Of a stretch of DNA of 64,000 nucleotides, positions 2,282 through 14,254 are shown piece after piece. The DNA lies in contig NC_019683.1 of NCBI RefSeq assembly GCF_000316605.1, positions 3,270,036-3,334,035 on the forward strand, written 5' to 3'. The notes under the pieces were generated by a model, which saw nothing but the letters and a program-made list of their open reading frames with translations, had not been told where the DNA came from and did no database searches. The first letter of the stretch is position 1; every line of letters starts with the position of its first letter. Both the position numbers and the translations under genes were made by a program. The DNA comes from [Leptolyngbya] sp. PCC 7376. GTDB taxonomy: Bacteria; Cyanobacteriota; Cyanobacteriia; Cyanobacteriales; MRBY01.

Positions 2282-2848
2282 TTAATCTAAATCTCTATGT
2301 GTCAGAATTTTATGTTGCAATCGAATTTCAGCTAATCTTTCTTCTTGATTAGTTCGAGCCCCTAAGGTAAATTCTCCAACTAAAGAATAATAAACCATGC
2401 GAGCACGTGTGGTTGCTTCAAAGGGAGTAAAATCAAGTTCTAAGAAAAGATTTTTTGTGTAATCAAAACGCCGTTGATCGACATCCTTAAGAACCACAGC
2501 CACTTGTGGTTCATTCCTTGCCCAAGCCCGTATTGCATTTTCTACCTGACCGTCATCTTGGACAGCCAATTCAAATAGGCGTAATAGCTTGGCAGAAGCA
2601 TCACCTTTTTCTCGCTCAACCTGTTCAATAATTCCATCCGTATCATTCGCAATCCAAGCATCAATAAGCGCATCCAGAAGCTCTGCACGATTTTTGAAAT
2701 GCCAGTAGAAACTCCCTTTCGTTACCTCTAGTAACTTCGCAAGGGGTTCAACTCGCACGGCAGCAACTCCACTTTCGGATAGAACCTTCAATCCCAAGTT
2801 AATCCAGTCTTGCTTACCAAGTTTAGAATTCTCTTTTTTTTTGACCAT
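2282..2848 (-). CDS. TetR/AcrR family transcriptional repressor
   Basis: The N-terminal third is a TetR-type helix-turn-helix: VEPLAKLLEVTKGSFYWHFKNRAELLDAL is typical of the DNA-recognition helix and the one after it. The rest is an all-helical ligand-binding and dimer domain without a recognisable effector class. I place the start at the ATG at 2848 (MVKKKENSKL), giving 188 residues; an upstream in-frame ATG at 2866 would add MSIRCR. Neither has a clear ribosome-binding site. A 14-base palindrome overlaps the start region and a near-identical copy lies 48 bases away before the divergent SnoaL-like gene. This layout is typical of a self-regulating local repressor, so the neighbour is the likely target. 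Confidence 0.85.
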   Translation of the reverse strand: MVKKKENSKLGKQDWINLGLKVLSESGVAAVRVEPLAKLLEVTKGSFYWHFKNRAELLDALIDAWIANDTDGIIEQVEREKGDASAKLLRLFELAVQDDGQVENAIRAWARNEPQVAVVLKDVDQRRFDYTKNLFLELDFTPFEATTRARMVYYSLVGEFTLGARTNQEERLAEIRLQHKILTHRDLD

Positions 2849-2860
2849 ACGGCAGCGTAT
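2847..2860. promoter_or_regulatory. Palindromic operator 1 (probable TetR site)
   Basis: ATACGGCAGCGTAT is an inverted repeat with ATACG/CGTAT arms. It overlaps the tetR start codon at 2848 and touches the -35 element of the divergent promoter. A second copy differing at one central base lies at 2895-2908. Confidence 0.7.
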
Positions 2861-2888
2861 TGACATTCGTCGACAGAGCTATTAGTCT
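2860..2888 (+). promoter_or_regulatory. Candidate sigma-70 promoter for the SnoaL-like gene
   Basis: TTGACA at 2860-2865 is followed, after 17 bases, by TAGTCT at 2883-2888, a fair -10 match. Operators 1 and 2 flank this promoter, so a bound repressor would block RNA polymerase from both sides. Confidence 0.45.
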
Positions 2889-2894
2889 ATAGCC

Positions 2895-2908
2895 ATACGG
2901 TAGCGTAT
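2895..2908. promoter_or_regulatory. Palindromic operator 2 (probable TetR site)
   Basis: ATACGGTAGCGTAT repeats operator 1 with one central change, and its centre is 48 bases away. It sits near the expected transcription start of the SnoaL-like gene, 13 bases before the upstream ATG at 2922. Confidence 0.7.
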
Positions 2909-2921
2909 TGAGAAAGCAGGC

Positions 2922-3557
2922 ATGAATATTTTTAGTCAAAAACATTGGATTTACAGGCTTTATAGTGCTCTAAAAGCGCATTTCAGAAATATAGGTTTTA
3001 TTAGTTTTGCTTACGCAATATGTGTCGCTTTTGTCTGCAGCTGGAGTGTGCCAGCGATCGCCAGCCCTATTCCTAATCATCAGCTCGTATCAATCAACGT
3101 TAATCATCAAGGAGAGAATGCTATGTCTATCGAACAAAATCGGATGATCGCCCTTCGATTTGCAACAGAGGGTTGGGGGACAAGTCCTAACTGGCGAGAA
3201 GTTTGGGATGAGCTAATGGCAGATGATGTGGTGTATCACTTCAATAGTTCAGCAGAGCCAATTGTTGGTTTGGAAGCGAATAAAGAATTTAATACTGATT
3301 TATTCCAAGGTTTTCCAGATCTCCATAATGCTATTCACGATGTGATTGTGGAAGGCAATAAGGTTGTTTATCACTCAACTTTAAAAGGCACAAATACAGG
3401 TTCTTTTTTAGGTGTGCCACCGACAGGAAAAGTTGTGGAAATCCATGACTTTACACTACTCAGTCTTTCTGGTGGGAAAATTTCAGAATGGTGGTATGAC
3501 TGTAATTTACTGGAAGTGATGCAGCAACTGGGTTTAGTGCCAGATGAGTCGGCATAA
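2922..3557 (+). CDS. SnoaL-like ester-cyclase-fold protein, possible leader peptide
   Basis: The C-terminal 144 residues have the look of the SnoaL-like polyketide/ester cyclase family (NTF2-like fold): NRMIALRFATEGWG, an EVWDELMADDVVYHF segment and GVPPTGKVVEIHDFTLL. The biochemical substrate is unknown. The open frame begins at 2922 with a hydrophobic stretch (residues 25-47, ending SVPAIAS) that looks like a signal peptide. However, an ATG at 3123 has a much better ribosome-binding site (AAGGAG, 8 bases upstream) and would give the usual cytosolic family length. Both products may be real. The gene diverges from tetR and is flanked by its operators, suggesting a stress- or compound-induced role. 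Confidence 0.8.
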   Translation: MNIFSQKHWIYRLYSALKAHFRNIGFISFAYAICVAFVCSWSVPAIASPIPNHQLVSINVNHQGENAMSIEQNRMIALRFATEGWGTSPNWREVWDELMADDVVYHFNSSAEPIVGLEANKEFNTDLFQGFPDLHNAIHDVIVEGNKVVYHSTLKGTNTGSFLGVPPTGKVVEIHDFTLLSLSGGKISEWWYDCNLLEVMQQLGLVPDESA

Positions 3558-3588
3558 ACTTTTCTTTAATACAGCAAATTAATCAGGA

Positions 3589-4029
3589 TCAGGTGAAATT
3601 TATAGCTGGGCGACGATAGTTCAGTTCAATGATTTTTGTCACTTGTCCTGTTTCTTCGTAGATATAGTCATCCACTAGAAACACTTGTCCATTTTCAAAA
3701 AGTAAAGAATAAAATACATTTCGTTCTTTTAAAACTACTCTTGAAGCATCACAAACAGTAGAACAATAAAAATGGCGTGATATGTCTGCAGCTAAGTTTT
3801 CAATTAGTGGTAATAAAGGTTCGATTTTGACATATATGCTCAGACAGTATTTTAAGCCTTGATCTAAATCAGTATTTTCAGAATATTGAAAAATACTTTG
3901 TTCTACTGCTGCATCATCCCAATCATTCAAACCTTCATATAGAAGAAAAAAATTCAAAGTAGGAAATTTGTTTCTGAGAAAAAGCTCTAGTTCTTGGTAT
4001 TCAAGATGTTTGTCTATCACGATATCCAT
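3589..4029 (-). CDS. Hypothetical protein, 146 aa
   Basis: I do not recognise this family. The product is acidic, soluble and without signal peptide or membrane helix. It has two cysteines close together (HFYCSTVCDAS, around residue 92) and ends with a strand-rich section (FLVDDYIYEETGQVTKIIELNYRRPA). It is convergent with the SnoaL-like gene and diverges from the MscS gene. The frame is intact, but coding status rests on length and a plausible amino-acid composition only. Confidence 0.55.
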   Translation of the reverse strand: MDIVIDKHLEYQELELFLRNKFPTLNFFLLYEGLNDWDDAAVEQSIFQYSENTDLDQGLKYCLSIYVKIEPLLPLIENLAADISRHFYCSTVCDASRVVLKERNVFYSLLFENGQVFLVDDYIYEETGQVTKIIELNYRRPAINFT

Positions 4030-4163: not shown

Positions 4164-4994
4164 GTGGAAAAATATCTTGATATAGCCATCAAATATGGTA
4201 TGGATTTCGGCATTCGCTTTCTCGTTGCCCTAATTGTCTTAGCCATTGGCTTACTGGTTGCCAAAGTACTACGCAATCTCATTAAAGCAATCATGTCGAA
4301 GGCAAAAGTTGACATGACGATTACCAACTTTGTTGGAAATCTGACCTATATTGCCTGCATTGCTTTACTTGTCGTCGTCGTTCTAGAACAAATTGGCATT
4401 GCAACCACCTCCTTTGTCGCTGTTTTGGGTGCTGCTGGTCTAGCGCTCGGTTTGGCGATGCAGGGTTCCCTCAGTAATTTCGCCTCTGGATTTTTGCTAG
4501 TAATCTTTCGTCCCTTTAAGATTGGCGATCGCATTGAAGCCGGAGGAGTAGAAGGAGAAGTTGAAGAAATATCTTTATTAACGACCTCATTAACGGCCTC
4601 AGATAATCGCAAAATTATCATTCCAAATAGCAAGATTTATAACGACAATATTATTAATTTCTCTGCTTATCCCACGAGTCGTATCGATTTTAAATTTACG
4701 ATTAGCTACGACGATAGTATCGATAAGGCTAAACAAATTTTTGCGGATGTAATTGCAAAAGAGAATCGAATTTTAAAAGAGCCTAAATCAAAATGCGTTG
4801 TTACAGAATTATCCAATCGCGGCGTGGAATTTAAAGTAAAAGTCTGGGTGGACAACTATAACTATGGTAAAGTTCGTGCTGAGATTAATGAACAGGTGAA
4901 AAAGGAATTTGATCGTAAAGGTTTAACGATTCCCTATTCTCATCCTGATGCCTACATGTATTCATTACAGAAGCTACGCAAAATGTTTTTCTAG
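4164..4994 (+). CDS. Small-conductance mechanosensitive channel, MscS family
   Basis: The 276-residue length is that of a minimal MscS channel, which opens on membrane tension to release solutes during osmotic downshock. Three hydrophobic segments lie near residues 15-40, 55-80 and 85-115. The third has the Gly/Ala-rich pore-lining pattern (VLGAAGLALGLAMQGSLSNFASGFLL). The conserved beta domain follows (RPFKIGDRIEAGGVEGEVEEISL, then IIIPNSKIYNDNIINFS). The start is the GTG at 4164; no ribosome-binding site is evident. The lipid-kinase fusion gene follows after 21 bases on the same strand, so the two may be cotranscribed. Confidence 0.92.
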   Translation: MEKYLDIAIKYGMDFGIRFLVALIVLAIGLLVAKVLRNLIKAIMSKAKVDMTITNFVGNLTYIACIALLVVVVLEQIGIATTSFVAVLGAAGLALGLAMQGSLSNFASGFLLVIFRPFKIGDRIEAGGVEGEVEEISLLTTSLTASDNRKIIIPNSKIYNDNIINFSAYPTSRIDFKFTISYDDSIDKAKQIFADVIAKENRILKEPKSKCVVTELSNRGVEFKVKVWVDNYNYGKVRAEINEQVKKEFDRKGLTIPYSHPDAYMYSLQKLRKMFF

Positions 4995-5015: not shown

Positions 5016-6308
5016 ATGTCGATATGTGTTGCGCTAATTGCCCATGACAGCAAGAAAAATGACATGGTGGGACTGGCGAAAAAGTATGAGTCTATTCTTG
5101 GGCGTTACAGACTTGTTGCCACGGGTAATACTGGGGAACAGATTCTCAATGCCACAGGTTTAGAAGTTGAATGTTTAGCCACTGCGGTCAATGGTGGTGT
5201 GTTGCAGATTGCGGCCAAGGTGGTTTCTGGGGAAATTGCGGGCGTTATTTTTCTGATGGATGCGCTTACGCCGCAGCCCTATGAGCCGGATCTCCAAGCT
5301 TTGATTCGGGTTTGCAATCTCTATGACATTCCCCTCGCCACAAACCTTTCTATTGCGGAATTATCGATTCAGGCGATCGCCAAACGTCGGGAAGCATATT
5401 TGATTTTCAATCCAGTGGCAGGACAGGGCAATCCAGATCAAGATTTGGCACAGATTCGCAATATTTTGGAGCCTCAAGTTAATCTCCATGTGATTTTCAC
5501 AAAGCCTGATATTGATCCTGTTGACCAGGCAAAGGAAGCGGTTGCAGCTATCCAAAAACTTCAAGCCAATAATGATCAAGGTTGCATTATTGCCTCCGGT
5601 GGTGATGGGACTGTATCGGCGATCGCCGGGGTGACCATAGAGACAGACATTCCTTTGGGAGTGATACCGCGCGGGACGGCTAATGCTTTTGCTGTGGCGT
5701 TGGGTTTACCCACAAATCTAAAGCGCGCCTGTGAAACCATTGCTGCCGGAAATACACGCAAGGTGGATGCGGCTTATTGTAATGACATTCCGATGGTGTT
5801 GTTGGCAGGCGTGGGATTTGAGGCAGGGATGGTGAATAATGCCAACCGCGAACTCAAAAATCGTTTGGGTAGTCTCGCCTATATTTTGTCGGGAGCACAG
5901 CAATTTTTCACGCAGGAAGATTTCAATGCAACTATCGAATTAGACGGTGAAGTTTTAGATATTAAAACTGGGGCAGTGACCGTGGCAAATGCGGCTCCAT
6001 CCACATCGGTAATGGCGCAAGGATTTGGGAGCGTAATTCCGGATGATGGCCTGCTGGAAGTCACAATCCCGGCTTCCAATAACCTCTTACAAGGTCTCAA
6101 CTCATCTCTAACGCTATTAGCTTCAGCTCTCGTAAAGACTAAAGTTGAAGATGAAGCTTTGATTTGTATCCGCACAGATCGCGTCAAAGTTACGACTGAT
6201 CCACCACAGCAACTTGTCGTCGATGGGGAAATCTTAGAAGCAAACCCCATCGAATTCACTTGTGTCCCAAAAGGATTAACCGTATTTACTCCTCTCCAAA
6301 CTGTTTAA
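5016..6308 (+). CDS. Methylglyoxal-synthase-like domain fused to a diacylglycerol-kinase-type lipid kinase
   Basis: Residues 1-125 resemble methylglyoxal synthase (IAHDSKKNDM, VATGNTGEQI, MDALTPQPYEPD). Residues 130-430 are a YegS/DAGK-type lipid kinase, with FNPVAGQGNP, the ATP-binding GGDGTVSAIAG and IPRGTANAFAVALGLP. Compared with E. coli MgsA as I remember it, the catalytic Asp71 position is Val62 and the His98 position is Tyr89, while His10 and Asp92 remain. The first domain is therefore probably not a working synthase and may bind a phosphorylated metabolite. The kinase would phosphorylate a lipid at the membrane; its substrate is unknown. It follows the MscS gene closely, with a GGAG site before the ATG. 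Confidence 0.88.
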   Translation: MSICVALIAHDSKKNDMVGLAKKYESILGRYRLVATGNTGEQILNATGLEVECLATAVNGGVLQIAAKVVSGEIAGVIFLMDALTPQPYEPDLQALIRVCNLYDIPLATNLSIAELSIQAIAKRREAYLIFNPVAGQGNPDQDLAQIRNILEPQVNLHVIFTKPDIDPVDQAKEAVAAIQKLQANNDQGCIIASGGDGTVSAIAGVTIETDIPLGVIPRGTANAFAVALGLPTNLKRACETIAAGNTRKVDAAYCNDIPMVLLAGVGFEAGMVNNANRELKNRLGSLAYILSGAQQFFTQEDFNATIELDGEVLDIKTGAVTVANAAPSTSVMAQGFGSVIPDDGLLEVTIPASNNLLQGLNSSLTLLASALVKTKVEDEALICIRTDRVKVTTDPPQQLVVDGEILEANPIEFTCVPKGLTVFTPLQTV

Positions 6309-12019: not shown

Positions 12020-14254
12020 TCAAAACGAGGCGTTTGTATAGGCTCCCCATAGTTTTGCAGCATAGTAGCTACTGCCTTGGGTTGGCGTGTTATCGTCATT
12101 GCCGAGCCAAACTGCGGTAACGAGTTTCTGTGACGGAACATAGCCGACAAACCACATATCGACATTGCGATTGGTGGTGCCTGTTTTTCCTGCCTCATCA
12201 AGTCCAAGACGTGCGACTTTAGCTGTGCCGCTCTGGATAACCCCCTGCATCATTTGGGTCATGGTTTGGGCTGTGCTCTGGGAAATTACTTGTTCGCGCC
12301 GAAAGTCAGAACGTTTGCTGAAGTCATAGAGCAGGTAGCAGCTGTCGATAGTTGCTCCTTTGCAGTCACTGCTGTCATAAATTTTGCGAATGGCATGGGG
12401 CTTATGCCATGTGCCACCATTGGCGAAGGTGGCGTAGGCACCGCTCATTTCTAGGACGGTAACTTCGCTTTCTCCTAGAACCAGACCGGGTGCAGCGTTT
12501 AGGTCTGATTCGATACCTAGTTGTTGAGCAAAGCTGATTACATTTTTTAAGCCGACTTCTTTAGCTACTCGGAGGGCGATCGCATTTTCAGATTGGGCAA
12601 TACCTCGAAACATATCAGTTGTTCCTGTGCTAGTCCGTTCACAGCCACGATATTGTTGTCCCTGCCAATTGAGAGGGCTACAGGAGAAGGATGTGAATGG
12701 GGAAATGCCTTCAGCGATCGCCGCCCCATAGCCAAACACTTTAAAGGTAGAACCGGGTTGGCGTTTAGCTTGCACTGCCCGATTAAATTGGCTTTCGGCA
12801 TAATTTTTACCGCCGACCATTGCAAGTAATTCACCTGTGTCACTATTGAGGGTGGCGATCGCCCCTTGGGAATACCCGACTTTTGCCCCGTCTGTGTCAA
12901 TGGAATCTTCAAGTGCTTTTGCCGCTGTGCGCTGCATCTGCAAATCTAGGCCTGTCTCGATGTAGAGATTGCCCATTTTGAGGGCATCTTCTCCAAGCAA
13001 TTCCGTTAGTTCTTGTTGCACATAACTGTAAAAGTAGGGGGCGGCATTATTCGACAACGCACGGCGAGCATCCTCACTGAGGCGATCTTCGATAGGCGTT
13101 AACTTTGCTTGGCGTTGCTCTTGATCTGTGATCATCCCAAGTTTATGCATCCGGTCGATTACGAGATTACGTTGTTCACGGGATTTTTCGGGGTTCACAA
13201 TCGGATTAAAGGCATTGGGAGCAGGCAGCATAGCGATCAAGGTTGCCGACTCAACCAAATCAATATTGCGAGCAGATTTATCGAAATAAAATTGTGCTGC
13301 GTCTTCAAAACCCGATTGGCCAACGCCCAGATAAACCTTATTCAGATAGAGCGATAAAATCTCATTTTTACTGAAAAAGGTTTCCATCTTGAGGGCAACA
13401 ATCATTTCCCGGAGCTTGCGACTGGCCGTTTTCTCTGTACCCACTGCAGGAAATAAACTACGGGCAACTTGCTGGGTAATCGTACTTGCGCCTTGGGAAA
13501 CATTCCCTTTGCTGAGGGCAACTTTGACGGCTCTGGCAATGCCAATCGGATCAACGCCCACATGCCAATAAAAACGGGCATCCTCGGAAGCTAAAACGCC
13601 TTGGCGCAGATAGGGGGAAAAATCTTTCAGTCGTTGAATTTCGCGATGGCTATCGGTGGTGACTGGATTAATGGCTGTCTCACCATCGTTGGCAAAAATC
13701 ACAACGGGACCAGTCACGCCAGCGGGCAGAGGGTTGAGCGGAAATTTTGACCATTGCCATGCCAACAGCAGACAGATAAAACCGATAAAACCGCCTGTGC
13801 CCATCAGCCCGTAACGAATCAGTTGTACCCAAATGGGTGGTTTATAGCGATAGGTCAGTTTAATGGCCTGGGCGAGTTCTGGAGGAGCTAGGTAAACGAC
13901 ATCGCCATTGCGGAGGGGATAGCTGCGGGTTTTACGTTTGTTGATGTAGAGGCCATTGGATGACTTCTCGTCTTGAATGATGTAATGGCGCGGATGGTTG
14001 GGGTCTTTGCTCAGGGAAAAATGGGTGGCGCTAACGGTATCGTTTTTGATTGGAATATCGTTTTTTCGGCTGCGTCCTCCGGTATGGCGATCGCCGACGA
14101 GAGGATAGGGTTTAGTATGGCCTTCGACATGAATTTCAGGAACTCGGGCATCCGGCTTGAGGGTTTGCTGTCCAAAGCTCACCATTGTATTGATGGCTTG
14201 GGTAACCATTTGTCCAATCTGAGTCTTGGGAGGTTGTTGATTGGGTTGAGTCAT
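12020..14254 (-). CDS. FHA-domain class A penicillin-binding protein (glycosyltransferase/transpeptidase)
   Basis: The protein has 744 residues in four parts. Residues 45-135 are an FHA domain (VGDRHTGGRSRKNDIPIKNDTVSATHFSL, SSNGLYINKR). A single membrane helix follows near 148-168. The GT51 glycosyltransferase comes next (SEDARFYWHVGVDP with the catalytic Glu, then GASTITQQVARSLF). The penicillin-binding transpeptidase ends the protein, with RQPGSTFKVF (SxxK), SEN and KTGTT. It polymerises and cross-links peptidoglycan in the periplasm, while the FHA domain stays in the cytoplasm and could sense phosphorylation. The start at 14254 fits. Its adjacent convergent gene encodes another FHA protein. 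Confidence 0.95.
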   Translation of the reverse strand: MTQPNQQPPKTQIGQMVTQAINTMVSFGQQTLKPDARVPEIHVEGHTKPYPLVGDRHTGGRSRKNDIPIKNDTVSATHFSLSKDPNHPRHYIIQDEKSSNGLYINKRKTRSYPLRNGDVVYLAPPELAQAIKLTYRYKPPIWVQLIRYGLMGTGGFIGFICLLLAWQWSKFPLNPLPAGVTGPVVIFANDGETAINPVTTDSHREIQRLKDFSPYLRQGVLASEDARFYWHVGVDPIGIARAVKVALSKGNVSQGASTITQQVARSLFPAVGTEKTASRKLREMIVALKMETFFSKNEILSLYLNKVYLGVGQSGFEDAAQFYFDKSARNIDLVESATLIAMLPAPNAFNPIVNPEKSREQRNLVIDRMHKLGMITDQEQRQAKLTPIEDRLSEDARRALSNNAAPYFYSYVQQELTELLGEDALKMGNLYIETGLDLQMQRTAAKALEDSIDTDGAKVGYSQGAIATLNSDTGELLAMVGGKNYAESQFNRAVQAKRQPGSTFKVFGYGAAIAEGISPFTSFSCSPLNWQGQQYRGCERTSTGTTDMFRGIAQSENAIALRVAKEVGLKNVISFAQQLGIESDLNAAPGLVLGESEVTVLEMSGAYATFANGGTWHKPHAIRKIYDSSDCKGATIDSCYLLYDFSKRSDFRREQVISQSTAQTMTQMMQGVIQSGTAKVARLGLDEAGKTGTTNRNVDMWFVGYVPSQKLVTAVWLGNDDNTPTQGSSYYAAKLWGAYTNASF

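Follow-up and report, generated by a model that had tools for sequence, protein, structure and literature searches.

A degenerate methylglyoxal synthase domain fused to a lipid-kinase-type domain in the cyanobacterium PCC 7376

The locus and its kinase half

The genome of [Leptolyngbya] sp. PCC 7376 is a single contig of 5,125,950 bases, and the window analysed here is a 64,000-nucleotide stretch of it (NC_019683.1, positions 3,270,036 to 3,334,035). Within it lies an open reading frame (ORF) that joins a methylglyoxal synthase (MGS, or MgsA-like) domain to a kinase domain of the YegS/DagK type. The ORF starts at an ATG behind a GGAGA-type ribosome site, and its product exceeds the cut-offs of three Pfam families: PF02142 MGS (residues 17-109, 36.8 bits, cut-off 24.1), PF00781 DAGK_cat (residues 127-253, 93.2 bits) and PF19279 YegS_C (residues 266-424, 48.4 bits). 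The features, in window positions, are as follows.

4164..4994, + strand: mscS-type mechanosensitive channel gene (Pfam MS_channel)
5016..6308, + strand: MgsA-like/DagK-type fusion ORF, 430 aa, intact (ORF list and profiles)
5016..5387, + strand: degenerate methylglyoxal synthase domain, residues about 1-124 (gapless alignment to 1wo8, model, TIGR00160)
5199..5201, + strand: codon GTG for Val62, in the place of catalytic Asp71 (alignment)
5280..5282, + strand: codon TAT for Tyr89, in the place of His98 (alignment)
5382..6302, + strand: YegS/DagK-type lipid kinase domain, residues 123-429 (NF002033, TIGR00147, fold match)
5598..5612, + strand: GGDGT nucleotide-binding motif, residues 195-199 (present in 48/48 fusions)
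6222..6230, + strand: DGE motif, residues 403-405, presumed catalytic acid (DGE in 44/48 fusions, DGD in 4/48)

The mscS-type gene ends 21 bp upstream of the fusion ORF on the same strand, and the two are possibly co-transcribed. Among the searched loci, mscS stands beside the fusion only in PCC 7376 and G211, the two fusion-bearing species of the genus, and given this restriction we dropped the adjacency as a functional clue. Between thrS and mscS, PCC 7376 has ~2 kb (window 2282-4029) occupied by three genes, one tetR-type, one SnoaL-like and one of unknown function; thrS adjoins mscS in the sister genome (L009), so this segment is an insertion or a deletion. Elsewhere in the window, an ORF on the minus strand (12020-14254) resembles, by eye, a penicillin-binding protein of class A that carries an FHA-like segment at its N terminus.

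The kinase half passes the cut-offs of NF002033, which describes the cyanobacterial subfamily PRK00861 (462.6 bits against 293), and of TIGR00147 (130.6 bits against 118.65). An NAD kinase identity for this domain was rejected: PF01513 reaches 24.0 bits, below its cut-off of 25.5, against 93.2 for DAGK_cat, and the kinase part of the predicted model matches bacterial diacylglycerol kinases with Z of 28-30 and NAD kinases with Z of 14-16. The motif GTANA replaces GTxND, with Ala where DgkB and YegS have Asp. NA at this motif is shared by 47/48 fusions and 29/31 stand-alone relatives, and is therefore a feature of the subfamily. On these features the PCC 7376 protein, like its relatives with NA at this motif, is a putative kinase, presumably of lipids.

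No second DAGK gene over the Pfam cut-off and no second MgsA gene were found in the PCC 7376 genome, where TIGR00160 matches the fusion ORF alone. A first-pass genome search with PF02142, which missed the domain of the fusion itself, returned two ORFs of 520 and 1093 aa and nothing else; their lengths suit PurH and CarB. Given that the sole DAGK-type gene over cut-off and the sole MgsA-like gene are one and the same, it is probably the kinase half that keeps the gene in the genome.

The synthase pocket across the fusions

Residues 5-123 align without gaps to T. thermophilus MGS (1wo8; phmmer, E 1.8e-33, 50% identity), with V62 opposite the Asp of GGDxQ and Y89 opposite the His of PHEPD. Alignment to E. 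coli MgsA, whose reference sequence was confirmed by exact match to 1b93, equates V62 with D71 and Y89 with H98. Both alignments bear out an earlier note on this DNA, made from the sequence alone, that had placed Val62 and Tyr89 at these active-site positions. In MgsA, Asp71 is the base that takes a proton from dihydroxyacetone phosphate (DHAP), and His98 has an accessory, conformational role (PMC7843640; PMC1877815). The nearest acids to V62 are E52 and E73, with no Asp or Glu between, so the base is missing rather than displaced along the chain. A catalytic Asp that is displaced but present, which the earlier note had named as one case against its reading, is not found in the gapless alignment.

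The rest of the pocket is partly kept. Of 15 pocket positions, nine agree with the intact consensus (H19, D20, K23, T45, G46, T48, G49, D91 and D101, in E. coli numbering), which upholds for these residues the claim that other pocket residues remain. Further changes at T47N, S65T, G66A and P67V (N38, T56, A57 and V58 of the protein itself) make the pocket more eroded than that claim implied; within the phosphate-binding set, K23, T45, G46, T48 and G49 are kept and T47, S65, G66 and P67 are replaced. The MGS half falls short of the MgsA equivalog profile TIGR00160 (136.7 bits, cut-off 146.9) and passes NF003559 (PRK05234; 126.1 bits, cut-off 84). In the predicted model of the fusion protein (mean pLDDT 86.9, with a weaker value of 68 for the stretch 81-90 that holds Y89), the degenerate domain still has the MgsA fold, matching 1wo8 at 1.3 Å over 123 residues (Z 24.6). 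Sequence and model together support the proposed joining of a degenerate MgsA domain to a kinase with GGDGT and DGE motifs, and we infer from the active-site residues that synthase activity has been lost in the PCC 7376 protein.

The clade of this protein also includes a same-genus sister species, at 82% identity, together with an Acaryochloris MAG, a contig deposited as Calothrix rhizosoleniae, Leptolyngbya sp. PCC 7375 and Adonisia turfae, the last with a partly masked copy, which leaves five readable members. Positions 71 and 98 read Val/Tyr in PCC 7376, Ile/Asn in the sister, Glu/His in Acaryochloris, Ile/Pro in Calothrix and Glu/Asn in Leptolyngbya. The sister protein and the three other members rule out a sequencing slip at V62 or Y89, and aligning the fusions, as the earlier note had suggested, shows a fixed loss of Asp71, which is absent from 5/5 readable clade members. 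Six pocket residues (D20, T45, T48, G49, D91 and D101) are invariant in the clade, and the phosphate-loop positions T47, S65, G66 and P67 vary within it. By its residues, the Acaryochloris copy (Glu71, His98) looks like an early stage.

A search with the PCC 7376 protein, with the loci then read, finds the MGS-DagK fusion in 42 of the 386 Cyanobacteriota genomes sampled; five further fusion loci were added from public contigs. Of 47 readable fusions, 18 keep H19, D71, H98 and D101 and 29 do not. In a kinase-domain tree the fusions form a single clade (100/100) against stand-alone kinases. With 20 additional stand-alone kinases, one MGS-less kinase on a long branch (L112) falls within the fusion clade, reflecting either whole-domain loss or tree error. 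The intact/degenerate label requires 8 changes on the kinase tree, and branches with good support impose 6 of these; the four catalytic residues alone require 7 changes, or 6 without one borderline row. The tree gives the number of changes rather than their direction, which we read as loss given the intact site of stand-alone MgsA in other bacteria. At least six to seven changes of catalytic residues indicate that the site can be lost without loss of the domain. Most other degenerate fusions retain Asp71 and have lost different residues, which points to separate decay. The fusions are graded from 15/15 down to 1/15 pocket residues retained, all on a single conserved scaffold, and in degenerate family f25 nearly the whole pocket is gone and the domain is retained. 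Truncated or frame-shifted copies are absent among the readable fusions, and there is at most one domain loss (L112). No full-length fusion on a plasmid occurs among the 10 matches listed, and one of 172 records matches at least 80% of the query at a single location.

Within the genus, four genomes (G058, G083, G386 and G387) encode a stand-alone DagK that is divergent (43-46% identical), and the fusion was not found in them; G211 has both the fusion and a stand-alone DagK, and PCC 7376 the fusion alone. Outside the genus, the closest fusions come from organisms assigned to other orders. Together with the distribution of fusion and DagK within the genus, this suggests horizontal transfer.

At moderate kinase divergence, the median ratio of MGS to kinase divergence is 0.79 for intact pairs and 1.65 for degenerate pairs (the pairs being non-independent), so that degenerate MGS parts diverge ~2x faster relative to the kinase than intact ones. 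The dN/dS of the MGS part is 0.06-0.39 in the computable pairs, indicating that the domain is still constrained; for PCC 7376 and its sister it is 0.145 at a dS of 1.7, a rough value, as pairs within the clade have high or saturated dS. Invariant pocket positions number 6/15 in the clade and at least 12/15 in each of 3003 choices of five intact proteins, sets that are slightly less diverged than the clade. In the rest of the domain, 38/101 positions are invariant in the clade, within the intact range of 34-53. As judged from these alignments, the pocket is released from constraint and the domain body is still held.

What the domain may be kept for

So, why is the domain retained? We lean, with moderate confidence, towards retention of the pseudo-MgsA domain for a structural or assembly role in the DagK/YegS-type kinase, or for control of it, the first being the likelier and any ligand control secondary. 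The ancestor would have been a bifunctional MgsA-kinase, probably from a single fusion event in cyanobacteria; the many homologues with an intact site make a bifunctional starting point probable. The lineage of PCC 7376 would have lost the catalytic base (Asp71 to Glu, Val or Ile) and usually His98 too, and the degenerate synthase should no longer make methylglyoxal. The folded domain persists under purifying selection, and the former synthase would be a folded platform carried by the lipid kinase. MgsA forms hexamers, and by analogy the platform may form oligomers or hold the kinase in position. The domain could still bind some phosphate, given that K23, T45, T48, D91 and D101 are among the nine of 15 pocket residues kept.

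The earlier note had favoured sensing of a triose or other phosphate. In its general form, the dead synthase would be an allosteric sensor in which DHAP, phosphoglycolate, inorganic phosphate or another anion occupies the pocket and switches the kinase, a reading that we consider possible though rather unlikely. It would account for the retention of H19, D20, K23, T45, T48, D91 and D101 in the PCC 7376 protein and for the six pocket residues invariant across the clade, and there are precedents: E. coli MgsA variants H98N and H98Q were crystallised with phosphoglycolate (structure titles), the allosteric domain of human CPS1 is an MGS-like domain (PMC4655335), and cyanobacterial MGS domains are also fused to cyclic-nucleotide-binding (cNMP-binding) and FHA domains. 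However, the clade pocket shows no excess conservation over the rest of the domain and its phosphate-loop positions vary. Such a relaxed pocket argues against strong selection for ligand binding, and other degenerate lineages lack nearly the entire pocket yet retain the domain. Triose-phosphate sensing in particular could occur, but gains no specific support from a pocket of this kind. A wider proposal, that cyanobacteria more than once converted a bifunctional synthase-kinase into a kinase whose pseudo-enzyme domain is regulatory and couples central carbon or phosphate status to membrane lipid turnover, with the PCC 7376 protein as a phosphate-binding intermediate, seems to us unlikely.

The twofold faster divergence of the MGS part relative to the kinase, and repeated losses with differing patterns, could also reflect passive decay of a useless synthase that is retained only because deletion from the fused frame harms kinase folding. 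This is distinctly improbable: dN/dS is well below 1 in every computable pair, conservation outside the pocket equals that of intact homologues, broken copies are absent among the readable fusions, and domain loss occurred at most once. Least probable by far is that the domain is still enzymatic, as a weak methylglyoxal synthase acting via other groups or as a lyase or isomerase with a new reaction. Although H19, D91, D101 and most phosphate ligands are present, and Glu71 in two clade members could serve as a poor base, Val62 is no base, the chain between E52 and E73 supplies no acid, and the constraint specific to the pocket is lost.

Related fusions and known systems

Other MGS layouts occur among the loci read. 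L049 (562-2481, genome G286) and L050 (508-2451, genome G170) each encode a degenerate MGS domain, a DAGK kinase and a C-terminal PAP2 phosphatase in one protein; in L049 the kinase and PAP2 are Pfam-confirmed. Such a protein would combine lipid kinase with lipid phosphatase. G170 has an additional fusion with an intact synthase site. In L100, L081-L086 and L088-L090, a mostly intact MgsA lies behind a cyclic-nucleotide-binding domain (Pfam-confirmed in L100 and judged by length and layout in the others), which suggests that cyclic nucleotides control methylglyoxal synthesis in them; L096-L098 appear to be degenerate counterparts of these fusions. L091-L095 (609-678 aa) have an N-terminal FHA domain, Pfam-confirmed in L091, and a C-terminal degenerate MGS-like domain with Tyr at position 71 and Gly at 98, making FHA a third partner for dead MGS domains.

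Among the open-licence papers searched we found no MGS-DagK fusion under that name, and no description of repeated loss of the synthase site. The graded series, with several separate losses, makes the change from enzyme to pseudo-enzyme or helper domain directly testable. It also suggests that, in many cyanobacteria, proteins carrying the annotation methylglyoxal synthase are not synthases.

The MGS-DagK fusion as such is already known. In the published account, Sll0036 of Synechocystis sp. PCC 6803 is a methylglyoxal synthase whose second motif, “NADK”, occurs in certain cyanobacteria; under mixotrophy a deletion strain contains less methylglyoxal, and the authors doubted the NAD kinase activity of the second domain (PMC11897720). 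The layout, MGS plus a GGDG-type kinase domain, is common to both proteins. The deletion phenotype implies that the Sll0036 synthase is apparently active, whereas the PCC 7376 site is degenerate. Two fusions, L016 and L018, look like close relatives of Sll0036, sharing the C-terminus NIFAPVENS with the Sll0036 end implied by the published reverse primer, and they keep H19, D71, H98 and D101. By profile and fold, the second domain of PCC 7376 belongs with diacylglycerol and lipid kinases, whereas that of Sll0036 had been named NADK; this suggests that the second half of Sll0036 is better read as a lipid-kinase-type domain and was apparently misnamed.

The PCC 7376 domain shares its fold, in gapless alignment, with stand-alone MgsA (E. 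coli 1b93, T. thermophilus 1wo8, B. subtilis 6f2c) but differs in lacking Asp71 and His98, in an altered S65-P67 loop and in fusion to a kinase. With the DgkB/BmrU/YegS lipid kinases (PF00781, TIGR00147, PRK00861) the protein shares a full kinase domain with GGDGT and DGE; unlike them, it has an extra N-terminal MGS domain and GTxNA for GTxND. Carbamoyl phosphate synthetase likewise carries a non-catalytic MGS-fold domain on an ATP-using enzyme (PMC4655335), although that domain is C-terminal and binds its own effector, whereas the PCC 7376 domain is N-terminal.
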